From: Desulfolutivibrio sulfodismutans DSM 3696
GTDB lineage: Bacteria; Desulfobacterota; Desulfovibrionia; Desulfovibrionales; Desulfovibrionaceae
DNA: 64,000 bases
Assembly (NCBI RefSeq): GCF_013376455.1
Contig: NZ_CP045504.1
Coordinates: forward strand, 806,001 to 870,000
Direction of reading: 5' to 3'
Positions 34,234 to 46,951 of this stretch are shown here, one piece after another (position 1 is the stretch's first letter; each line of letters opens with the position of its first letter). Under the pieces are notes generated by a model. It made no database searches, was not told the DNA's origin, and was given only the letters and a program-made list of their open reading frames with translations. Both the position numbers and the translations under genes were made by a program.

Positions 34234-34420
34234 GGTCAAGGCCTGGATGGTCCGTCGGGGGTTGCGCGTGACGGATGTGGCGCAGGGGGCCGGCGTGGAC
34301 AAATCCTACGTGAGCCATTTTCTGGCGGGTCGAAGGCGTGGACGTGTTGTTCGCGAATACCTGATCCGGATCGGATGTCCGGCGACCTTCCTGGGCGAGG
34401 ATGTCCGGAAAGTTGCTTAA
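34217..34420 (+). CDS. Small Ner/XRE-like HTH protein
   Basis: The 67-residue product is one helix-turn-helix (KAWMVRRGLRVTDVAQGAGV then DKSYVSHFLAGRRRG). In Mu the Ner protein has this place and size and turns down early and repressor promoters. The start at 34217 lies inside the end of the previous gene. An upstream frame exists but would overlap far more. Confidence 0.75.
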   Translation: MVQGRRVKAWMVRRGLRVTDVAQGAGVDKSYVSHFLAGRRRGRVVREYLIRIGCPATFLGEDVRKVA

Positions 34421-34443
34421 GCACCATCAACTGGGAAAGGGCA

Positions 34444-36555
34444 ATGCAGGAAACGTACACGGCACGGGAGATCGCGGAGGCGTTAGGCCTTGGTGAAAGG
34501 GCGATCCGCAAGCGCGCCAATAAGGAACGTTGGTCCGTGCAATTGGCAGGGCATGGAAAGTCCTGGCGTACCATCGCGTATGTTGCTGCCTCCCTCCCCG
34601 CAGACGTCCGCGCGGCCATCATCGCCCACGAGGCCCAGAACCTTCCGGCATCTCCCGACCCGTCTGAACCGGCCCTGAGCGAGGCGCAACGCGCCAAGGC
34701 CCTGGCCAAGGCGGACCTTGTGCGGCTGTACGTCGAGGCCCTGACCAGGGCCCCGCACGGAAACAAGACCGCCGCCCGCGATGGATTCATGACCGCCTAC
34801 CACGCCGGGGCTTGGCCACGGCTGCTGGCCTTGCTCGGGCGCACCTCCTGGAAGAGCATCGAACGTTGGAAGCTGACCAGCTCGGCAACCGGTTCCGCCC
34901 TGCGGCTGGCGGATACGCGCGGCGGACAACGGGTGGCGTCGAAGCTGACGGAGCGGCATTGTCAGCTTTTGCTCAATCTGGCGCGGCATCCCAACAAGCC
35001 GTGCATCTCCGAGGTGTGCCGGATGGCCCGCGAGGCCTTTAAGGCCGCCGGGCTCCCTGATTGCCACGATGTGACCATGCGCCGGTTCCTGGAACGCTGG
35101 TCCCGACAGAACTACGGGGAATGGATCTTTGCCCGCGAGGGCAAGAAGGCCTGGAACGACAAGTGCTGCCCGTACATCGAGCGCGACTATTCCAAGATCG
35201 CGGTGGGCGACATCCTGGTGGCCGACGGCCACGCCCTGAATTTCGAGATACTTGACCCCGAGACCGGCCAGGGGCGTCGAATGGAACTGGTCCTCTGGTA
35301 CGACATGGCCAGTTCCTATCCCTGCGGTTGGGAAATTCTGCCCACGGAAAACGTGCGGTCCATTGCCGCCGCCTTTCGCCGGGCTTGCATGCGGCTCGGG
35401 AGCTTCCCCAAGGTCGCCTATCTGGACAACGGAAAGGCCTTCAAGGCGCGCTTTTTCACGGGCATCGACCTTTCCCAGACCGGCCTTTCGGGGGTGTTCA
35501 CCGAGCTTGGCGTGGAACCGCTCTTCGCATGGCCCTACCACGGCCAATCCAAAACCATCGAGAGATTTTTCGAAACCTTCGGCGAGCTGGAACGGTGGGT
35601 TCCGTCCTATGTCGGGACCGGGATCGACAGCAAACCGCCTCGGCTCATGCGGGGCGAGAAGCTGCACCGCAAGGTGTATGACGCCTCGGGCGGACGCCCC
35701 CTGACTCTCGAAGAGGCCCATACGGCCATCGCCATCTGGTTCGACGCCTACGCCGAACGGCCCCAGCGCGGACATCTGAAGGGCCAAGCGCCTCGCGACG
35801 TTTTCGAGGCCGGACGCGGATCGGGATTGACGGACGCGGACATGCAAAAGCTGCGCATGTGCATGCTGTCCAAGAGCGTCCGCAGCATCGACCGCAACGG
35901 CGTCAGCCTGCACGGGAAGCACTACTACCATCCGCTTTTGCATCATCTGCGGCACAAGGTGCTGGTCAGATACGACGACCAGGGCCGGGATTCCATCCTG
36001 ATTTACGACGAGGCCGGAAAGCAGTTCATCTGCGAGGCGACGCCGCGCAAAAGCGTGCATCCGGCGGCCCGAATCCTTGGAAATGCCGAGGATCAGGCCA
36101 TCCTGGCCGAGGAAATCGGCCTGAAGAAAGCCCTGGAGCATCAGGTTACGGCCAACGCACGCGCATTCTTGAAAGAGGTGGTCCTGCCGGAGACGCAATC
36201 GCGGATGCGGCTGATCGAGGCCAAAAAGACCGTCCCTGCGGCCGTGCCTGCGCCGAAGGCCCCAGACGTGGTGCGCATCGAAGAAGGCAAGTCGGCGGCT
36301 CGGGCCAAGCTGGCCGAGGCCCCGGCTTATGTGCCCCCGGCGCAAATTCCCGCCATCACCACGGAGCTTGATCGCTACGAATACCTTTTCAATCTGGCTG
36401 TCCGGGACGGCGTGGCCTTGCGCGAGGCCGACGCCGACTGGATGGCCCGCTACGAGCAGACCGGGGAGTACGCTGCCTGCGCACGCGGCAGATACGAGCA
36501 ATTGCGGCAGGTGTACGCGCGCCGCCGCGCCATAGCCAACGGGGGGGTGTCATGA
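34444..36555 (+). CDS. MuA-type DDE transposase
   Basis: The start at 34444 follows gggaaaggg and gives 703 residues (Mu A has 663). The N-terminal domain (about 1-60) is the winged-helix enhancer-binding region (YTAREIAEALGLGERAIRKR). An end-binding domain follows, then the RNase H-like catalytic core with Asp261 (VADGHALNF), Asp328 (YLDNGKAF) and Glu373 (KTIERFFETF), then the beta-barrel. All three metal-binding residues are present. It cuts and joins phage ends during integration and replicative transposition. It overlaps muB by 4 nt. Confidence 0.97.
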   Translation: MQETYTAREIAEALGLGERAIRKRANKERWSVQLAGHGKSWRTIAYVAASLPADVRAAIIAHEAQNLPASPDPSEPALSEAQRAKALAKADLVRLYVEALTRAPHGNKTAARDGFMTAYHAGAWPRLLALLGRTSWKSIERWKLTSSATGSALRLADTRGGQRVASKLTERHCQLLLNLARHPNKPCISEVCRMAREAFKAAGLPDCHDVTMRRFLERWSRQNYGEWIFAREGKKAWNDKCCPYIERDYSKIAVGDILVADGHALNFEILDPETGQGRRMELVLWYDMASSYPCGWEILPTENVRSIAAAFRRACMRLGSFPKVAYLDNGKAFKARFFTGIDLSQTGLSGVFTELGVEPLFAWPYHGQSKTIERFFETFGELERWVPSYVGTGIDSKPPRLMRGEKLHRKVYDASGGRPLTLEEAHTAIAIWFDAYAERPQRGHLKGQAPRDVFEAGRGSGLTDADMQKLRMCMLSKSVRSIDRNGVSLHGKHYYHPLLHHLRHKVLVRYDDQGRDSILIYDEAGKQFICEATPRKSVHPAARILGNAEDQAILAEEIGLKKALEHQVTANARAFLKEVVLPETQSRMRLIEAKKTVPAAVPAPKAPDVVRIEEGKSAARAKLAEAPAYVPPAQIPAITTELDRYEYLFNLAVRDGVALREADADWMARYEQTGEYAACARGRYEQLRQVYARRRAIANGGVS

Positions 36556-37271
36556 AGTCGGTATTTATCGAGACCAAAAACGTGGCCGCGTTTCGTCGCG
36601 CGGTGCTGTCCGTCGAGGACACCGAGCGCGGCCAGCCCGGATTCGTGCTGGCCTGGGGCCAGGCCGGAAGGGGCAAGACCTTCGCGGCCCGGAACAGCCA
36701 TGCCGAGCGCGGCGGGGTCTACCTGTCGGCCTGGGAGGCCATGAGCCATGCGGCGTTTCTGTCCCGGCTGCACTTCGAGGCCACGGGAGCCAAGGGGCCC
36801 CATGCCGCCCACGCCTGCAAGGTGCGGATCATCGAAGTTCTGGAGAAGCGGCGGATGCAAGGCGTGGCCACCACCATCTACATGGACGAGGCGGACAGGC
36901 TGCCGTTCGGCCTGATCGAACACCTGCGGGACATCCACGAGGCCACGGGCGCAGCGGTCATCCTGATCGGCGAGGAGGAACTCCTCGGCCTTCTGTCGCA
37001 ACGCCGCCGCATCTGGTCACGGGTCACGCAAGAGGTTTCGTTCGTCGCGGCGGACGATGGGGACATCGCCAGCTTCGCCATGGAGGCGGCGGGGCTGGAT
37101 CTGACGCCCCAGGCCACGGCCATGATCCGCACCACGTCCGACGGTGACATGCGTCTGGTGCGCAACATGGTGCAGCTCCTGGAACAGGCGGCCAGGGCGC
37201 GGGAGACGGGTCTGGTCGACGATGCAATGGTCGCGGCGATCCAGAAGACGAAGTCCTGGAGGCGGTCATGA
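36552..37271 (+). CDS. MuB-type transposition ATPase
   Basis: The 239-residue AAA+ protein has Walker A GQAGRGKT (36-43) and Walker B TIYMDEAD (108-115). It is shorter than Mu B (312 residues) and lacks the N-terminal HTH. It selects target DNA and activates the transposase. It overlaps both its neighbours by 4 nt (ATGA), so it is translationally coupled. Confidence 0.93.
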   Translation: MKSVFIETKNVAAFRRAVLSVEDTERGQPGFVLAWGQAGRGKTFAARNSHAERGGVYLSAWEAMSHAAFLSRLHFEATGAKGPHAAHACKVRIIEVLEKRRMQGVATTIYMDEADRLPFGLIEHLRDIHEATGAAVILIGEEELLGLLSQRRRIWSRVTQEVSFVAADDGDIASFAMEAAGLDLTPQATAMIRTTSDGDMRLVRNMVQLLEQAARARETGLVDDAMVAAIQKTKSWRRS

Positions 37272-39403: not shown

Positions 39404-39538
39404 GTGGAAGACATCGACTTTGCGGCCGTGGCCATGCTGATCGAAAACCATTGGGACGAATTCGTCGAGCACAGCGGCGATGAGGAGTCCGCCCAGAAAT
39501 CCCTGGACGCGGTGAAACGTGCCGGAGGGTTGGCCTAA
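39404..39538 (+). CDS. 44-residue acidic protein
   Basis: GTG start after aaaggggg; 44 residues rich in Asp/Glu (MEDIDFAAVAMLIENHWDEF...). Its TAA stop (39,536-39,538) is immediately followed by hammerhead ribozyme 1. No family recognised. Confidence 0.5.
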   Translation: MEDIDFAAVAMLIENHWDEFVEHSGDEESAQKSLDAVKRAGGLA

Positions 39539-39539
39539 C

Positions 39540-39598
39540 GCGAAACCGCCCTGCGGGGCGGTCGTCGGACGGTGGCGCGTCCGGCCTGATGAGCAGCC
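39540..39598 (+). ncRNA. Type II hammerhead ribozyme, copy 1
   Basis: All conserved core elements are present in permuted type II order. GAAA is at 39,542-39,545. Stem III is ccgccc/gggcgg, closed by a UGCG tetraloop of the UNCG class. The cleavage triplet GUC ends at 39,563. Stem I is gtcggacg/cgtccggc (8 bp, loop gtggcg), and CUGAUGA is at 39,586-39,592. Stem II is open and short: G-C and C-G next to the core. Cleavage is expected after C39,563. The loop I sequence GGC could pair with the conserved GCC at 39,596-39,598, giving the loop-to-tail contact known to speed natural hammerheads (inference). Confidence 0.93.
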
Positions 39599-39612
39599 GA
39601 GGGGGATGAAAT

Positions 39613-39882
39613 ATGGCCGAGTATGTGCCGGTGCCAATTGAGGCAGCAAAGCGGATAGCCGAGGACTATGACAAGGAACAGGTCATTATCATCGCGTATG
39701 ACGACAAGCATCAACTCAAGCACTGCACAACGTATGGAAAAACCTTGCGTGATGCTGCTCTTGCCGCCGCTGTCGGTGCCCACTTGAAAGCATGGCTCGG
39801 GTTTCCGGAGGAGTACTGCAAGGTGCTTCCGGCGCGAGTACTCAAAGCCATTGAAGCATTCGAAGCAAATGAAGAGAAATAA
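39613..39882 (+). CDS. Ribozyme-cassette gene 1, unknown function
   Basis: The 89-residue protein (MAEYVPVPIEAAKRIAEDYD...) begins 13 nt after the purine-rich tail of ribozyme 1 (gccgaggggga), which serves as ribosome binding site. The sequence has an alternating beta/alpha pattern (QVIIIAYDDKHQLKHCTTYG then a long helix). It has no signal peptide and no recognised family. Its stop is just 3 nt before the first base of ribozyme 2's core. Confidence 0.7.
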   Translation: MAEYVPVPIEAAKRIAEDYDKEQVIIIAYDDKHQLKHCTTYGKTLRDAALAAAVGAHLKAWLGFPEEYCKVLPARVLKAIEAFEANEEK

Positions 39883-39942
39883 TGCGAAACCGCCCTGCGG
39901 GGCGGTCGTCGGGACGTGGCGGTCCCGGCCTGATGAGCAGCC
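39883..39942 (+). ncRNA. Type II hammerhead ribozyme, copy 2
   Basis: The architecture is that of copy 1, with GAAA 39,886-39,889, stem III plus UGCG loop, GUC ending at 39,907 (cleavage site) and CUGAUGA 39,930-39,936. Stem I is gtcgggac/gtcccggc. Compared with copy 1, three base pairs changed on both sides (A-U to G-C, C-G to A-U, G-C to C-G), while the 6-nt loop gtggcg did not. This is strong covariation support. Stem II has three pairs here (tgc/gca). Confidence 0.94.
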
Positions 39943-39954
39943 GAGGAGAGACAC

Positions 39955-40206
39955 ATGGCCGTCGCATATTGCTTCACCAACGGAGTGGTTCGCATCAACG
40001 AGACGTGCCCGGACGGTGCGCTCCCAATAGCTAGTGGCGATGCGTGTCAACTCCAGCGTGCCGTCCGTGATCTTGCGGTGCATGCATGGGATGGCGTGAT
40101 TATGCTCGTTCCAAACCTTGCCTTGGCACAGGATGATAGTGCGAAAGTGGCCGCTGTGCTGGATTTCTCACGGCGCGTCGAACAAAGCCTGCGCCGGGAG
40201 CAGTAG
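39955..40206 (+). CDS. Ribozyme-cassette gene 2, unknown function
   Basis: The 83-residue protein (MAVAYCFTNGVVRINETCPD...) starts 12 nt after the ribozyme 2 tail, which again supplies the ribosome binding site (ccgaggaga). It has a beta-rich N-terminus and a helical C-terminus. No family recognised. Confidence 0.65.
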   Translation: MAVAYCFTNGVVRINETCPDGALPIASGDACQLQRAVRDLAVHAWDGVIMLVPNLALAQDDSAKVAAVLDFSRRVEQSLRREQ

Positions 40207-40219
40207 GAGGAGGTGTCGA

Positions 40220-40429
40220 ATGGGCGGGTTCTCATGCACATGCGAGGAACGAAAGAAACCATTGAATGAACGTGCGTGGTTTGTTTTTAAGAGAAGATAC
40301 CATTGCTCTGCATTCTCTGGATACCATGCAACGCGAAGCGATTACAGCAGTGTGAGTTGTAGGAGATGTGGTCGTGTCTGGAGAACAAAAGCAAAGTACG
40401 TCTTCGATTTACCAGACGGAAGGCTTTAG
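40220..40429 (+). CDS. Small zinc-ribbon-like phage protein
   Basis: The 69-residue product has C-x-C near its start (GGFSCTCEERKKP) and C-x-x-C later (SVSCRRCGRVWR), a likely zinc site. The ATG follows gaggagg by 6-8 nt. The TAG stop at 40,427-40,429 overlaps the first base of ribozyme 3. It shares a cassette with the preceding gene. Confidence 0.65.
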   Translation: MGGFSCTCEERKKPLNERAWFVFKRRYHCSAFSGYHATRSDYSSVSCRRCGRVWRTKAKYVFDLPDGRL

Positions 40430-40487
40430 CGAAACCGCCCTGCGGGGCGGTCGTCGGACGGTGGCGCGTCCGGCCTGATGAGCAGCC
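40429..40487 (+). ncRNA. Type II hammerhead ribozyme, copy 3
   Basis: GAAA 40,431-40,434, stem III ccgccc/gggcgg with UGCG loop, GUC ending at 40,452 (cleavage site), stem I 40,453-40,474 identical to copy 1, and CUGAUGA 40,475-40,481. Stem II next to the core is gc/gc. The GCC tail (40,485-40,487) that could contact loop I is conserved. The tail changes to agagga, which serves as ribosome binding site for the next gene. Confidence 0.93.
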
Positions 40488-40499
40488 AGAGGAATCACC

Positions 40500-40919
40500 A
40501 TGCGCATCTACATCGCCGCATCCTGGAAACATCAGCACGCCGTCGAGATGCTGGCCGAAAGGCTTACAGACGATGGCCACGACGTCGTGTCCTTTATCGC
40601 CGAGGCCCGGCGAACTGAGGGGAACAATGTCGTCGCGGCGCTCGACAGAGAAGACTGGATCATGTCGCCCGATGGCGAGCGGCGCTTTCGCTATGATCTG
40701 GACGGGGCCTGCCGCTCCGACGTGGTCATCTACCTGGGACCGTCGGGCACCGACGCCTGGGCCGAGGTCGGCGCGGCGTATGCCTGCGGCGTGCCGATCC
40801 TGGGGCTGTGGGCCAAGGGCGAAAGCGCCGGGCTCATGCGCCGCATGGTGTCACGTTGGTTCACGGACTATCGCACGTTGCTGGCCAGCCTCGCTGATCG
40901 CGAGCATGCGGAGTTGTAG
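40500..40919 (+). CDS. Nucleoside 2-deoxyribosyltransferase-like protein
   Basis: The 139-residue protein resembles the NDT/DNPH family fold: MRIYIAASWKHQHAVEML at the start, a D-x-x-x-x-x-x-S-D-V-V-I-Y-L-G strand, and G-T-D-A-W-A-E-V-G-A-A-Y-A-C-G-V-P-I-L-G with the catalytic-type Glu in AEVG. Members cleave or exchange the base of deoxynucleotides, which could alter phage or host nucleotide pools. It directly follows ribozyme 3, so it belongs to the third cassette. Substrate unknown. Confidence 0.75.
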   Translation: MRIYIAASWKHQHAVEMLAERLTDDGHDVVSFIAEARRTEGNNVVAALDREDWIMSPDGERRFRYDLDGACRSDVVIYLGPSGTDAWAEVGAAYACGVPILGLWAKGESAGLMRRMVSRWFTDYRTLLASLADREHAEL

Positions 40920-42274: not shown

Positions 42275-42640
42275 GTGCCGCCACTTCCCGAAGACGAACG
42301 GCGCGCCCTGCGGGCGGCCATCCTGGAGCGGCACAAAACCGTCTACGCCTTCTGCAAGGCCTGCCGGGTCACCAAAAGCGTTGTCGTGCAGCTATTGCGC
42401 GGCACCTATCCCGGCGACACGGCCCGGCAGACGGCGCGCGTCAAAGCGGCCCTGGAGGCTGGCCCGGCCGGGGCGGGTGGCCCGGCCGTGACGCGGGCGC
42501 AACTTGTCGAGGCTCTGGGGCGCGAGGCCTGCGCCAAATGCCGGGCCGTGGACCGACGGCGTTGCCGGTTCTGCCGGGTGCTGTGGGAACGGCAGGCCGA
42601 TGCCGTGCTCGGGCTTTGGGGTTGCCCGAACCATGAGTGA
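42275..42640 (+). CDS. Phage HTH plus zinc-binding protein
   Basis: GTG start, 121 residues. The N-terminal half looks like a helix-turn-helix (VYAFCKACRVTKSVVVQLLR), and the C-terminal half has CAKC and CRFC pairs plus a final CPNH, forming a probable zinc ribbon. A phage regulator is plausible. Confidence 0.6.
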   Translation: MPPLPEDERRALRAAILERHKTVYAFCKACRVTKSVVVQLLRGTYPGDTARQTARVKAALEAGPAGAGGPAVTRAQLVEALGREACAKCRAVDRRRCRFCRVLWERQADAVLGLWGCPNHE

Positions 42641-43076
42641 AAAACGCCGGAAATCACATGCCGTTTTGCTCAAGATTCAGGGCAAGTCCTCGCGGGTCGA
42701 GCTGTTTCCGGCCGAGGAATGGACCGGGACCGAGGCGGGGTTGTGGCGGGTGCGCATCGACGGCCGGTGGCATGTCCCGGCCGGGGGCGGGCACCATGAG
42801 TTTTTGAACCCGGAGGGGGTGGCCGCCTTGTTGGCCGGGCTGCTTTTCGGGGATGCGCCTGCGCAGGCCGGACCCGGAAAGGCCTGGGAAGCGGCCGGAC
42901 GCGGGATCAGGCGGGTACGCGCGCCGCTTCGCTACGAGGGCGACGTGGTCACGGCCACGCAGATCGCCGCCGTCCTGGCGCCGCCGATCCAGGCCATAGA
43001 CGGCCGGTTCTGGCTGCCGGTCATGGGCTACGACGGGCGTGGCTACGCGCTTTTGGAGGATTGCGAGGTGTTGTGA
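42633..43076 (+). CDS. Phage protein, unknown function
   Basis: The 147-residue protein starts within the last codons of the previous gene. It is mainly beta-strand (HAVLLKIQGKSSRVELFPAE, LWRVRIDGRWHVPAGGG). No recognised domain. Confidence 0.6.
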   Translation: MSEKRRKSHAVLLKIQGKSSRVELFPAEEWTGTEAGLWRVRIDGRWHVPAGGGHHEFLNPEGVAALLAGLLFGDAPAQAGPGKAWEAAGRGIRRVRAPLRYEGDVVTATQIAAVLAPPIQAIDGRFWLPVMGYDGRGYALLEDCEVL

Positions 43077-43102
43077 CCGGCCACGCGGCCGAGGGGGGTG
43101 CT

Positions 43103-43564
43103 ATGAGTGCGATTGAGGATGTGACACGGCTGTTGGCCACGGGATACGTGCCGTACCACGGCGTGGTGGATGGGTCGGTGTACGAGCGCCTGAAGTGCCT
43201 GCGGCCCAAGCGGGCCAAATGGTTCACGCGCGAGGCGAAAAAAATTTGCCTGGGTTGCTCCCGGGGCTGCGTGGTGGCCGACGCGATGGGGTTTGAATTG
43301 ACATTGCCCGTTTCCGGCCGGGCCAAGCGGTTGTGCTTCGCGGAACTGCCTGCGGTGAGCGCCCGGGAGCTTCTGGACAAGAAGTTGTTTTTGACCGTGC
43401 CGGAAGCCGAATTCGTCCTGAACGTGAGCACCCGTAGCGTCTATAACCTGCTGGAAGAGGGGCGGTTGACGCGGCATCCCGACCCGCCCACGCGGATCAC
43501 GTCGGCCAGCGTGCGGCAGGAGGCTGAAAGGCGGGAGGGCGACAACGCAACAGGGACTTACTGA
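43103..43564 (+). CDS. Excisionase/MerR-like HTH phage protein
   Basis: ATG after gaggggggt; 153 residues. The N-terminal part has a Cys cluster (KKICLGCSRGC). The C-terminal 60 residues fit a winged HTH of the excisionase type (LTVPEAEFVLNVSTRSVYNL then LEEGRLTRHP). It is the last early/middle gene and a candidate activator of later genes, in place of the Mor/C proteins of Mu, which I do not find. Its 3' end overlaps the convergent gene by 7 bases. Confidence 0.65.
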   Translation: MSAIEDVTRLLATGYVPYHGVVDGSVYERLKCLRPKRAKWFTREAKKICLGCSRGCVVADAMGFELTLPVSGRAKRLCFAELPAVSARELLDKKLFLTVPEAEFVLNVSTRSVYNLLEEGRLTRHPDPPTRITSASVRQEAERREGDNATGTY

Positions 43565-44304
43565 AACATTGAGGATTCGTAATAGTCGGTTCGGTATACT
43601 ATAAATTCACCATCACTACGAACGCCAACTTCAACTCTGATATCGAAGTCGATTGGCTTGTTCCCGAGTAATGTAAAAAGGTCACGCCCCGAAATTGTAA
43701 CCCGATGAATGGTAGATGTTTCACCTGGTTTTAGCTTGTCAACAGAAATATAGTGGTCACACAAAATGGTATTATGTTGAACTGACGTCATTTTGCAGAT
43801 TACGACAACTCTATCAAGAGGGACAGCTCCTGTATTTTTCACAGAGAAAGAGTACTCTGGGGATTTTGGCTTGTATTCGTTGAACCTGTTAAGCCAAATC
43901 CCTTTCGCCACCGGGACGATGGCAATGTCTAGTGGTTTTTTGGGGATAACGACAGGTGGCACAGCATCAATATGACGTTTTGGTTGTGCTTTTTCAGGTT
44001 GTGCGACAGGAATCGGAACGGGAATCACTGGAGTGGATGGAGCGACAGGCGGCTTCTGCACGACGTAAAAAGAGGTATTTTTAATGATCGCCAATGCAAT
44101 GATCAGAAGCACAAGCCCTGCTGCCGCCAGTAGAATCTTCCGGTTGGCGGTTTTTGGTTGCGTGAAGCCGCTGCCGCAGACGGGACAGGCGAATTTCCCT
44201 TGAGCCAACTGTCTTTTCAGGTCGTCAAGCCGAAAGGAGACGCCGCAGTTCGGACATCGTATTTCGTCGCCTTGGGAGGAGGGTGTATCGTGTGGTTCAC
44301 TCAT
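43558..44304 (-). CDS. Inverted accessory gene: zinc-ribbon membrane protein
   Basis: The start at 44304 gives 248 residues. An N-terminal double zinc ribbon (CPNC ... CPVC, about 15-43, of the MJ0042 type) is followed by a basic stretch, one membrane helix (about 52-72), a Pro-rich linker (VPIPVPIPVAQ-type) and an extracytoplasmic beta-sandwich-like domain (about 130-248). It is the only late-region gene on the opposite strand and is AT-richer than the phage genes. That fits a lysogenic-conversion ('moron') gene, perhaps a surface or phage-exclusion factor. An upstream in-frame extension lacks a ribosome binding site. Confidence 0.7.
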   Translation of the reverse strand: MSEPHDTPSSQGDEIRCPNCGVSFRLDDLKRQLAQGKFACPVCGSGFTQPKTANRKILLAAAGLVLLIIALAIIKNTSFYVVQKPPVAPSTPVIPVPIPVAQPEKAQPKRHIDAVPPVVIPKKPLDIAIVPVAKGIWLNRFNEYKPKSPEYSFSVKNTGAVPLDRVVVICKMTSVQHNTILCDHYISVDKLKPGETSTIHRVTISGRDLFTLLGNKPIDFDIRVEVGVRSDGEFIVYRTDYYESSMFQ

Positions 44305-44402
44305 GGCTGCATGCTCGGTCAGGTTTGTAAATAATGCCAACTCTGTGCACAGGTTAAGAGACGGAAAGATATTCGTCAACACATTGGGACTGGAAAGCTT
44401 GA

Positions 44403-44506
44403 CTTTCGCCGCCCAGCATCATAACCGGAAAGTCCCAACCCTATGAGGCGTCCTGCCGCCTCTGCTCCGGTTCCCATCCGGCGCGAAAGAGCGGGCTTTT
44501 TGTTTT
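44403..44506 (+). ncRNA. Structured RNA element with U-rich end
   Basis: Three nested helices can form: ctttcgc/gcgaaag (44,403-44,489), aaccgg/ccggtt (44,423-44,472) and gaggcg/cgcctc with a 6-nt loop (44,445-44,462). A U-rich run (ctttttgtttt) ends at 44,506. The loop sequence cccaaccctatg recurs at the Rha ribosome binding site (44,630-44,641). It is a candidate leader, antiterminator or terminator; I do not recognise a known class. Confidence 0.5.
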
Positions 44507-44545
44507 GGTCGCCTTAGCGGCCCCATTTTTGGGGCGGCACGAATC

Positions 44546-44618
44546 GGCGGCATGACGTCCGGGTGTCCGCGAGGCCCCGGCAGCTCATAGGGCTGGGGAG
44601 CGTCATGTCGCCTTTTTT
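44546..44618 (+). terminator. Three-way-junction terminator upstream of rha
   Basis: A 12-bp outer stem (ggcggcatgacg / cgtcatgtcgcc, one G-U) encloses two smaller hairpins (ccggg/cccgg and cagc/gctg) and is followed by six T's. It is an intrinsic terminator with an unusual branched loop, only 33 bases before the rha start. Confidence 0.75.
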
Positions 44619-44650
44619 ATTTCTAAATCCCAACCCTATGGAGGCGCATC

Positions 44651-45253
44651 ATGTCCCAACCCCAAACCCCTTCCGTCCCGGTGACCGTGGAATTCCTGCC
44701 CGGAGAGCGCCCAGCCGTCCGATCCGTGGAACTGGCCCAGCATTTCGGGCTGAAACACAAGAACGTGCTGCGGGACATCGACGATTTGACCCGTAAGCTA
44801 CCGGAATCATTTTGTCGGCTCAACTTTGAGCCCACAGAGGCCGAGGTCGTTGTTCCCGCGTCCGGCGGGATGAGGAAGGACCGCGCCTACCTCCTCACCC
44901 GCGACGCCTTCACGCTCCTGGTCATGGGCTGGTCCAGCCAGCGGGCCATGGAATGGAAGCTCAAGTACATCAACGCCTTCAACGCCTTGGAGCGCGCGGC
45001 GCTGGAAAACGCCCGCACCGAGGCCCTGGCCGAGGGGGCGCGGGCGGCCTTGGCCGTGACCCCGGAACGGGCGGCCATGTTGCGAAAGGTGGTCCGCTAC
45101 AAGGGCCTGGGGCTTTCCAGCGTGGAGATCGGCAAGCTGGTGGAGCGGTCGGACAGCGCCGTGCGCCGGGACATCGGCGCGGCCCGCAGGATGGGTCTGG
45201 TTCAGGAGCCGCCCCGCCGGGGCGCAGCGCGCCAGTCCGAGAGAGGGCGTTAG
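44651..45253 (+). CDS. Rha-family phage regulatory protein
   Basis: The 200-residue protein has the pRha domain: S-V-E-L-A-Q-H-F-G-L-K-H-K-N-V-L-R-D-I (about 25-43), R-x-Y-L-L-T-R-D-A-F-T-L-L-V-M-G (about 78-93) and the AMEWKLKYINAFNALE helix. A second, C-terminal HTH-like part (SSVEIGKLVERSDSAVRRDI) is added. Rha proteins affect phage growth through host factors such as IHF. The start follows ggaggcg. Confidence 0.85.
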   Translation: MSQPQTPSVPVTVEFLPGERPAVRSVELAQHFGLKHKNVLRDIDDLTRKLPESFCRLNFEPTEAEVVVPASGGMRKDRAYLLTRDAFTLLVMGWSSQRAMEWKLKYINAFNALERAALENARTEALAEGARAALAVTPERAAMLRKVVRYKGLGLSSVEIGKLVERSDSAVRRDIGAARRMGLVQEPPRRGAARQSERGR

Positions 45254-45255
45254 CC

Positions 45256-45534
45256 ATGCGCGTGACATTAAGCGTCCTGGCCACCCCGGACGATGCGCCC
45301 GGCGAGATCGTGGAGCGGGTCGGCTCCCTGGCCGCGTTTCTGCGCGAGGCCACCATGGGGCTTTCCATGGACCAGGGGCTGGTGTTCTCGCCCCGGGGCG
45401 TGCAGGGGCTGTCGCTCTTGGCCTCGCTTATCGAGGAGGCCACGGCCCAGGCCGCCCACAACCTGAAGCGGCAGCGCCTTCGCGGCCTGCCCAAGCCGGA
45501 AGGGCCAAAAATCGGCCGACGTTCCGTGAGTTAA
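45256..45534 (+). CDS. Small phage protein, unknown
   Basis: 92 residues starting 2 nt after the rha stop: MRVTLSVLATPDDAPGEIVE, then helices and a basic C-terminus. No family recognised. A terminator follows. Confidence 0.55.
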   Translation: MRVTLSVLATPDDAPGEIVERVGSLAAFLREATMGLSMDQGLVFSPRGVQGLSLLASLIEEATAQAAHNLKRQRLRGLPKPEGPKIGRRSVS

Positions 45535-45546
45535 ACCGCCCGCCAG

Positions 45547-45580
45547 ACCGGCCCGCCTCCGCAAAAGGCGGGCCGGTTTT
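45547..45580 (+). terminator. Strong intrinsic terminator
   Basis: A 12-bp stem (accggcccgcct / aggcgggccggt) with a 7-nt loop is followed by TTTT. It separates the rha unit from the lysis and late genes. Confidence 0.85.
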
Positions 45581-45763
45581 GCCTGAAACTCCGCGCACGC
45601 CCACGCACCCCCCGCTCACTGCCTCGCCCCCGCCCGTACTACTTGTGCGGCCATGCCGTGCGCCCCCACTGGCTAGCGTCCCTGCCTCGGGCGGCCGTGA
45701 AACATGCCCCACGGCCGCCCCGGTGGGGACATCCCGGGGCAACCGCAACCGTGCGAGGCCGCC

Positions 45764-46162
45764 ATGAAGAAACTCCCGTTGATCTTTTCCGCCTGCCTCC
45801 TGGCCGTTATCCTGACCCTTTCATCCTGCGCCGTTCTGCCCACGTCCTCCGACCCCGCCTCCGGCGGCCTGAGCGCCGAACAGGCCCAGGCCGGACTGGA
45901 ATGGCTCGATGCCTCCCTGGCCAGGCTTTCGGCCGACGTGGCCGTGGCCAAGGCCATTGCGCCGGAAAAGGCCGACGCCATTGACGCGGCCGTGGGCGGC
46001 TATCTGGCCGAACTGCGCATGGGACTGGCCACCATCCGCGAGCAGCTCGCGGCCGGACGAACCGGCGCGGCCGACACCGTGTGGCAGACCATGCGGCCAC
46101 TTGTGGGCCAGGCCGCCCTGCGGCTCCTCACGTACGGCGTCGGCGCGGTGGCCGGGAGCTAG
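45764..46162 (+). CDS. Phage lipoprotein in the lysis module
   Basis: 132 residues. A lipoprotein signal ends in the lipobox LSSC (about residue 22). The rest is helical with Ala-rich amphipathic stretches. By position beside holin-like and transglycosylase genes it may be a spanin-type component, but it is longer than usual Rz1 and not proline-rich. Confidence 0.6.
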   Translation: MKKLPLIFSACLLAVILTLSSCAVLPTSSDPASGGLSAEQAQAGLEWLDASLARLSADVAVAKAIAPEKADAIDAAVGGYLAELRMGLATIREQLAAGRTGAADTVWQTMRPLVGQAALRLLTYGVGAVAGS

Positions 46163-46166
46163 GCCC

Positions 46167-46361
46167 ATGCAGCGCGGACACATGGGGGGACTCCGCAAAA
46201 TTGCGGCGTCGGAAGTCGGCCAAGCCATGCGGAACATGCATCTGTCGTTTGCATTGGTCAGTCTGGCGCTCTCGACGGTGTACCTCTGTCGCCAGGACAT
46301 GGTGGACGCCTGTTTCTGGGCCGTCAATTTTTACGGCAACGCCATCCTGGCCAAGCGGTAG
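46167..46361 (+). CDS. Small membrane protein of the lysis module
   Basis: The 64-residue protein has one hydrophobic helix (about 28-45: SFALVSLALSTVYLC) and an amphipathic C-terminus. It lies just before the lytic transglycosylase, so it may be a holin or accessory holin. Confidence 0.5.
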   Translation: MQRGHMGGLRKIAASEVGQAMRNMHLSFALVSLALSTVYLCRQDMVDACFWAVNFYGNAILAKR

Positions 46362-46369
46362 GAGGGAAT

Positions 46370-46951
46370 ATGTCCATCACCTTTGAAGAACTTGTGGCGA
46401 TGTTGAACCAGGCTTTGGAGGCTCGGCGGCCGCTCCCTGTCGTTACCCCGGCGGAACTCCCCGCGCCGTCTGCCCCGAACCAGGACGAACTGATCGTGAC
46501 GATGGCCGCCAGCTACCAGCTCCCTGAGGACATCGTGCGGGCCATGGTGCTGCACGAGTCGGTCGGGGGCATCACGCATGCCATCCGGTTTGAGCCAACA
46601 TTTTATGACAAATACATCAAGGGCAGGGAGATGAACTACTGCCCGGAGCATTGCTCTCATGAAACCGAGCGCATCGGCCGGGCCACCTCGTGGGGGCTCA
46701 TGCAGGTCATGGGCGAGACGGCCCGCTGCAACGGATTTCGTGGCTGGTTTCCGGAGCTTTGCACCCCCGTTGTCGGCCTGGAATGGGGCTGCCGCTATCT
46801 GCGGCGGTTGGCGGACAAACACCTGGCCGAGGGCGGCTGGCCCACGGTCATGCGGGCCTATAACGGCGGCCCGGGCAACAAGGACAATCTCGCCAGCCCG
46901 TACCCGGACAAGATCCTGGCCCTGATCCCGGGCAACGTCTGGCCGGAATAG
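46370..46951 (+). CDS. Phage lytic transglycosylase (SLT domain)
   Basis: 193 residues. The catalytic Glu63 is in MVLHESVGG, followed by SWGLMQVMGETA, Y-L-R-R-L-x-D-K and the AYNGGPG turn, all typical of soluble lytic transglycosylases. It cleaves peptidoglycan glycan strands at lysis. There is no signal peptide, so release through a holin is expected. Confidence 0.88.
   Translation: MSITFEELVAMLNQALEARRPLPVVTPAELPAPSAPNQDELIVTMAASYQLPEDIVRAMVLHESVGGITHAIRFEPTFYDKYIKGREMNYCPEHCSHETERIGRATSWGLMQVMGETARCNGFRGWFPELCTPVVGLEWGCRYLRRLADKHLAEGGWPTVMRAYNGGPGNKDNLASPYPDKILALIPGNVWPE

Follow-up and report, generated by a model that had tools for sequence, protein, structure and literature searches.

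A probable c4/P4-CI-type antisense immunity cassette before the rha gene of a Mu-like prophage in the Desulfovibrio family

The region immediately before rha in a Mu-like prophage of the Desulfovibrio family is very probably an antisense immunity cassette of the c4/P4-CI type that controls a Rha-like regulator of the prophage, as judged from sequence, folding models and analogy with phages P1 and P4. Within the window (the whole 64,000-nt stretch of DNA analyzed here, G000:C1:806001-870000), the cassette occupies positions 44433-44653 and has three parts, namely a sequence copy A, an RNA core with a three-way junction and a second copy, C. The prophage is marked in the window by a transposase and a DNA transposition protein (34375-37268), an endolysin-like gene (46370) and a portal gene (50648). 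The existence and kind of the cassette are well supported. Its structure, the complementarity and co-variation of A and C with the core segment B, the positions of a promoter-like motif and a U-run, and the identity of the neighboring genes are observed directly; action in trans, a translational block and a role in immunity would apply by analogy with P1 and P4. The features, with their positions in the window, are as follows.

44399..44404, + strand: -35-like TTGACT (motif position, with a putative start site)
44422-44427, + strand: weak -10-like TAACCG, 17 nt past TTGACT, which would place the start near copy A
44433..44445, + strand: copy A, TCCCAACCCTATG, with complementarity to, and co-variation with, loop B
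44445..44462, + strand: hairpin GAGGCG-TCCTGC-CGCCTC over the 3' end of copy A, of at least 5 bp in 49/53 loci
44517..44538, + strand: spacer hairpin GCGGCCCCA/TGGGGCGGC, whose sequence varies among close relatives
44546..44618, + strand: putative c4-like antisense RNA core doubling as an intrinsic terminator (fold, covariation, U-run)
44546-44557/44601-44612, + strand: core stem P1, 12 bp
44559-44563/44576-44580, + strand: core P2, with a GNRA tip at 44569-44572
44581-44584/44592-44595, + strand: core P3, with a variable loop
44584..44597, + strand: antisense segment B, CTCATAGGGCTGGG (P3 loop, 3' arm and junction)
44596-44600, + strand: core junction, single-stranded, after P3
44613-44618, + strand: U6 behind the core, directly after stem P1
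44628..44640, + strand: copy C, TCCCAACCCTATG, bordering the rha Shine-Dalgarno sequence, complementary to B and co-varying with it
44640..44644, + strand: Shine-Dalgarno-like GGAGG of rha (by sequence)
44651..45253, + strand: rha, 200 aa from an ATG start, Phage_pRha (PF09669, E 4.5e-24), the presumed regulated gene

Copy A is the counterpart of the a1b1 target of phage P1 and of P4 seqA, and copy C is the counterpart of P1 a2b2 and P4 seqC. The earlier note had pointed to a 12-nt repeat shared by the first of two structured elements and the rha ribosome-binding site; a scan of the 64 kb found this repeat, CCCAACCCTATG, exactly at 44434-44445 and 44629-44640, with a near-complement at 44586-44597. 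The count alone is not unusual (3 matches with no more than 2 mismatches observed versus 5.24 expected in 64 kb), and the repeat stands above chance because, among homologues, changes in the loop go with changes in the copies. Segment B forms inverted repeats with copies A and C (inverted repeats I2, 93%, and I5, 92%), and the predicted duplexes reach -25.3 kcal/mol (B-A) and -24.2 kcal/mol (B-C), with 0/1000 shuffles as good. A 12-nt stretch beside copy A also resembles the 3' arm of stem P1 and can pair with the 5' arm (inverted repeat I3). The rha product carries a C-terminal HTH_11 match that lies below the HTH_11 cut-off. Just upstream of the cassette, a divergent open reading frame on the - strand (43558-44307) encodes two CxxC motifs and a hydrophobic stretch.

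The second structured element, at 44546-44618, is seen in the sequence as it had been described, with a 12-bp stem around two hairpins and then U6. Positions 44536-44622 fold at -42 kcal/mol (z -2.91), with 3/200 shuffles equally stable. Wider flanks gave unremarkable z-scores (-1.18 for 44536-44660 and -1.75 for 44395-44680); therefore, the case for the core structure is made by covariation. We used an alignment (A2) of 25 distinct homologous cores, obtained by removing duplicates and L021 from 30 core rows, which had themselves omitted identical or repeated loci (L001, L007-L009, L024 and L031) and matches shorter than 40 nt. Across the 25 cores, 98.6% of the pair cells are standard pairs and two-sided changes occur in 10/20 core pairs, a result reached by 0/500 shuffles and with no slid register near it. 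Covariation among homologous leaders, which the earlier note had named as a check, is thus present. RNAalifold, run unaided, returned a similar fold with two-sided changes in 11/23 pairs. The conserved fold consists of the closing stem P1, a P2 in which five pairs are interrupted by an internal loop and capped by a GNRA tip, a variable-loop P3 and a GGGAG junction; the alignment hence shows the three-way junction of the C4 kind, in which P1, a capped P2, a variable-loop P3 and a single-stranded junction are combined. A U-rich run (5/6 T) follows the stem in 64/65 distinct-code loci, compared with 12% of upstream windows.

The first element had been described as three nested helices with a U-rich end, and the case for it is weak. 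Copy A and its short hairpin are kept in relatives (the 49/53 loci above, with such a hairpin in 31% of shuffles); the three nested helices were not supported, and 44395-44510 scarcely beats its shuffles (z -1.45; 13/200 as stable). Across seven close copies, the block around TTTTTGTTTTTGTCGCC is partly conserved, and the spacer hairpin at 44517-44538 is variable.

The cassette region is present in six copies in its own genome, two of which are identical across the whole 271-base query, the second of them sitting in the duplicate of the prophage described below. By nucleotide search, matches were retrieved from 22/288 genomes of the Desulfovibrio family. A covariance model built from the 25 distinct cores (R1) extended this to 33/288 family genomes at an E value of 0.001, including one weak match (G283, 29.8 bits). 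Outside the family, R1 matches were much weaker (27.9 to 41 bits) and came from 8 further genomes out of 395 sampled across the phylum; the A and C matches of these hits look poor. In viral contigs, a core-like pattern was found in 11 stretches on 10 contigs, with R1 scores of at least 67 bits in 10/11 and 28.8 bits in one. At least one of these 10 contigs is identical to the window across the leader and rha; therefore, not all of the viral contigs are independent. A nucleotide search of 44340-45260 against 50,697 phage records gave no match, in a set from which near-identical records may be absent. The same pattern scan applied to genome contigs returned at least 118 stretches, largely from GC-rich actinobacteria, which we took as chance occurrences. 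From the 80 pattern-scan loci listed, 24 were scored with R1; eight loci reached at least 55 bits and one scored 20 bits.

Several arrangements of these elements were observed along the way. Most of the Mu-like prophage (window 34583-63854) occurs a second time, in inverted orientation, at G000:C1:4196001-4236000 (L254/L255); this copy aligns at 99.2% over 20.0 kb and at 97.7% over 9.4 kb and carries the same loop code. Tandem cores lie ~77 to 520 nt apart (start to start) in L010, L020, L036, L223, L224 and L245, and the codes differ within each of the tandem pairs listed. The first L010 cassette has a diverged copy A and a short Rha-like protein; because of these two features, it may be decaying.

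The window also contains three type II hammerhead ribozymes on the + strand (39538-39602, 39882-39946 and 40427-40491), with two short segments enclosed between them. Positions 39540-40488 are repeated elsewhere in the same genome (L256) at 99.5% identity, again with three hammerheads; the L256 flanks are diverged, and the identity starts and stops at the outer ribozymes. Another stretch (L257) has one hammerhead. This looks like a set of hammerhead-bounded gene cassettes. A nucleoside deoxyribosyltransferase-like gene (phrog_12607, 40500-40919) lies directly after the third hammerhead.

Evidence for antisense pairing is that the loop sequence of each core, hereafter its code, tracks the flanking copies across loci. 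The input was 88 distinct contexts from 97 R1 matches, with one row per code and short-flank rows dropped. Ten loci called weak after the matches had been viewed (L068-L075, L207 and L244) were omitted, with L068 and L069 (~41 bits) left out while L241-L243 (37 to 40 bits) and the L230 match (28.8 bits) were not classed as weak. For the resulting 65 distinct codes, the mean score was 8.20 with the locus's own A versus 5.46 with non-cognate A (z 21.6) and 7.17 with its own C versus 4.92 with non-cognate C (z 18.8), both z-scores being uncorrected for relatedness. The own-A or own-C score was reached in 0/20,000 permutations, which likewise ignore relatedness. An earlier run of the test on 29 loci gave the same result.

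The match is not uniform across loci. The loop and junction are complementary to the ribosome-binding site of the next gene, as expected of the C4 kind, in 43/65 codes (score of at least 7 with own C, versus 5.5% for non-cognate C) and fail to be so in 22. A second target copy upstream, near the putative transcript start, is another mark of this kind and was found in 53/65 codes (score of at least 7 with own A, versus 11.0% for non-cognate A), with 12/65 scoring below 7. Own C was the best or tied best partner in only 33/65 rows and own A in 44/65. Several low-scoring loci (e.g., L013 and L210) have no first gene detectable by simple search. In total, 60 codes were counted among 74 loci in the family. 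We also considered whether identical codes are excluded within a genome; identical pairs made up 1/85 within genomes versus 16/2616 between genomes, and therefore no depletion can be claimed. The sole identical pair within a genome comes from the duplicated prophage.

The sequence context of the cassette is also conserved. The promoter, fold and A-hairpin analyses were restricted to the 53/65 loci with an A score of at least 7, i.e., loci selected for A-B complementarity, and the U-run and start-codon analyses covered all 65. TTGAC lies 35 to 46 nt before the A code in 51/53 loci, compared with 0 to 1 of 53 in ten shifted windows; because of this fixed distance, the RNA probably starts at copy A. 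A mechanical sigma-70 scan of the + strand from 42500 to 46500 listed no promoter, the TTGACT site included. The mechanical terminator scan of the same interval, with a loop limit of 8 nt, did not list the core, and terminator-like sites there were not above chance. A Shine-Dalgarno-like sequence and start codon follow the core in 54/65 loci, compared with 63/255 control windows.

Downstream genes were sampled as 20 hand-picked proteins, which do not constitute a census. Ten of these, picked from first or second genes, consisted by Pfam of two Rha, one AntA and seven Bro-N proteins. The other ten, from other loci, comprised six Toprim-DUF927, Toprim-DUF3987 or Prim-Pol-DUF3987 proteins and four small proteins with no Pfam match. 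A position before a phage antirepressor or replication operon, as for RNAs of the C4 kind, was thus found for 16/20 picked proteins, by gene context only. The small first genes before an antirepressor-like gene resemble icd before ant in phage P1, and the two classes of neighboring gene recall ant of P1 and the replication genes of P4 (in the part of PMC4825925 that treats them).

The earlier note had suggested that the leader could switch between termination and read-through, and folding in silico supports this. When RNAs were cut before the 3' arm of stem P1, pairing of A with B was predicted in 52/53 loci, compared with 10/53 when A was taken from another locus. The mean inner stem P1 probability over the 53 loci was 0.43 for the free RNA and 0.88 with A masked; masking other spacer segments instead gave 0.56, and substituting a non-cognate A gave 0.89. 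The window copy had probabilities of 0.01 (free), 0.96 (A masked) and 0.23 (other segments masked). These equilibrium folds, which ignore kinetics, proteins and Rho, suggest that A acting in cis opens the terminator and that masking of A closes it. The switch may be partial, because full-length minimum-energy folds are divided almost evenly between A-B pairing (28) and a closed stem P1 (24) among the 53 loci. The effect of pairing between the A flank and the stem P1 arm is small (-14.2 versus -12.7 kcal/mol).

In the mechanism that we propose, the promoter would start the RNA at or near copy A, and transcription through the core would usually stop at U6; the c4-like RNA set free there would carry the variable recognition code in its P3 loop and junction (B). 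By analogy with P1 and P4, whose RNAs work in trans by keeping antirepressor from being made or by bringing about termination, B would pair in trans with copy C of a read-through mRNA and so block rha translation; the 5'-terminal copy A of the nascent transcript would be a further target of B. A free copy A would pair with B in cis while its flank engaged the 5' arm of stem P1, so that no terminator stem would form and the polymerase would reach rha. If a c4-like RNA already present masked A, the stem would close, transcription would end and another c4-like RNA would be made. The core itself, acting in trans, would be the natural masking RNA, and it could cover the ribosome-binding site as well. 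The predicted outcome is an off state maintained in lysogens and an initial on state in newly infected cells.

A more ambitious interpretation, to which we give slightly less than even credence, is that the cassette works as a bistable lysogeny switch without any protein, with a single RNA serving as terminator, product and regulator, A as a cis antiterminator, and ~60 codes coexisting in one family. Here, the released c4-like RNA would mask A of the next transcript, forcing termination and yielding more c4-like RNA, and would also block the ribosome-binding site of any transcript that escaped.

The same folds could be accommodated by a cis-only attenuator, in which the loop would pair within one RNA either with A (read-through) or with C (translation block) and no trans-acting RNA would be involved. 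A, B and C do lie in one presumed transcript, and the folds show a balance of A-B pairing against the terminator stem. We nevertheless consider this reading improbable. For the P1/P7 c4 and P4 CI RNAs, whose layout is the same, the literature describes antisense action on targets (in parts of PMC5320573, PMC12197685 and PMC4825925). The core is, moreover, self-contained and structured, with the U-run behind it in 64/65 loci. Codes differ in 84/85 within-genome pairs; this is not decisive, as they also differ in 2600/2616 pairs between genomes.

The put RNAs act in cis on RNA polymerase, and HK022 put, to which the earlier note had likened the leader, is a structured phage leader that affects termination; to our knowledge, put RNAs have no antisense targets. 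An antitermination RNA of this type, modifying RNA polymerase to pass terminators, would suit a structured RNA near the presumed phage transcript start with a terminator before the gene. It would leave unexplained the complementarity of the loop to two co-varying sites, as well as the c4 topology and gene context, and distant relatives align mostly at the terminator-like core, not at the upstream part. The likeness to HK022 put was not supported, since the loop co-varies with one copy at the putative transcript start and another at the ribosome-binding site, an arrangement that the c4/CI layout shares; pairing among A, B and C explains these features instead, and we regard a put-like function as very unlikely. 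An ordinary intrinsic terminator that serves the upstream genes and has no connection with the rha promoter or ribosome-binding site behind it accounts for the strong stem and U6, yet it is already contradicted by the co-variation of the loop code with A and C, leaves aside the covarying three-way junction matched in 33/288 family genomes and the conserved TTGAC before A, and is scarcely credible.

An antisense immunity cassette of the c4/CI kind in these prophages would be of interest on several counts. The three-part design of c4/CI appears in Desulfovibrio-family prophages, where current Rfam thresholds miss it, and the version found there is fused to an intrinsic terminator and has many loop codes. 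The role of A as a cis antiterminator provides a concrete, testable model for what the upstream target copy does. If the reading is true, the codes amount to a sizeable natural collection of RNA immunity specificities that may be orthogonal, shared by antirepressor and replication operons.

The c4/CI RNAs for which we found descriptions are those of P1, P7 and P4 and of various proteobacterial prophages (as covered in part of PMC5320573). The annotation of the phage P1 record runs in the order promoter, a1, b1, 77-nt c4 RNA, a2, b2, icd and ant1; as in the cassette described here, target copies flank the RNA, with a1b1 on its upstream side and a2b2 ahead of the first gene. The neighboring operon encodes an antirepressor in P1 and a primase in P4. 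P1 c4 and the P4 cI locus reach 68.8 and 74.9 bits, respectively, with the curated C4 model (RF01695), which has in common with our core a long closing stem, a short capped P2, an antisense loop on P3 and a single-stranded antisense junction. The conserved nucleotides differ from those of C4, both when R1 is compared with P1 and P4 and when RF01695 is compared with the window copy. The antisense element is nearly contiguous here and matches one stretch of 13 to 15 nt, whereas C4 uses split a/b sites, and a U-run adjoins the core directly, a feature that P1 c4 lacks.

Consistent with these differences, R1 run on phages P1 and P4 with filters off found nothing at c4 or CI, and an Rfam scan of the window gave no c4 model and no IsrK match. 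Lowering the stringency to an E value of 10 for 44300-44700 retrieved no c4 model and no related leader family; the two candidates that did appear, L31-Actinobacteria (16.7 bits) and chrB-b (11.4 bits), were far under their cut-offs and were rejected. The c4-2 model (RF02944), which belongs to the same Rfam clan as C4 (CL00128), shares the three-helix plan with an interrupted P2. It gave full-length matches to two places of the R1 family (L018/L247 and L240) at 32.6 and 32.8 bits, under its cut-off of 41, and matched 1/19 loci scanned among relatives. At gathering thresholds, RF01695 is not reached in the window, and RF02944 is reached neither in the window nor in any of the 288 family genomes (0/288 over 41 bits). 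Seven family genomes have RF02944 matches at 30.7 to 37.8 bits, of which only G051 has R1 matches. The other sub-threshold c4-2 matches, in G021, G038, G059, G098, G109 and G110, are in genomes with no R1 match, and further c4-like types may occur in the family. Kinship with c4 is one of topology and layout, because c4 models have no match at the window and few in its relatives, and R1 misses P1 and P4. Because layout, topology and gene context are shared and yet the curated models stay below cut-off, the best reading of the sequence comparisons is that these RNAs are an unrecognized variant of the c4 kind that is a member of neither RF01695 nor RF02944. Our search of the literature on Desulfovibrio and c4-2/C4, in which most subscription journals lay outside the search, found no description of these RNAs.

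Details of the known systems offer further points of comparison, in each case as given in part of the source cited. RNase P cuts c4 at the start of stem P1, at a GGW-like motif (PMC5320573), and stem P1 in the window begins with GGC at 44546. The b' loop of c4 partly occludes ribosome-binding sites (PMC5320573). The specificities of P1 and P7 are separated by a difference of only 4 nt (PMC5320573), and the loci described here supply dozens of natural pairs for asking how few base changes create a new immunity group. P4 CI pairs with seqA upstream and seqC downstream, which leads to termination (PMC4825925). The IsrK/P4 seqA leader (RF01394) is subject to read-through control and has complementarity to RNA further down its own transcript (PMC4825925). 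The effect of IsrK on its target is translational activation, whereas the match of B to C in the present cassette predicts repression.
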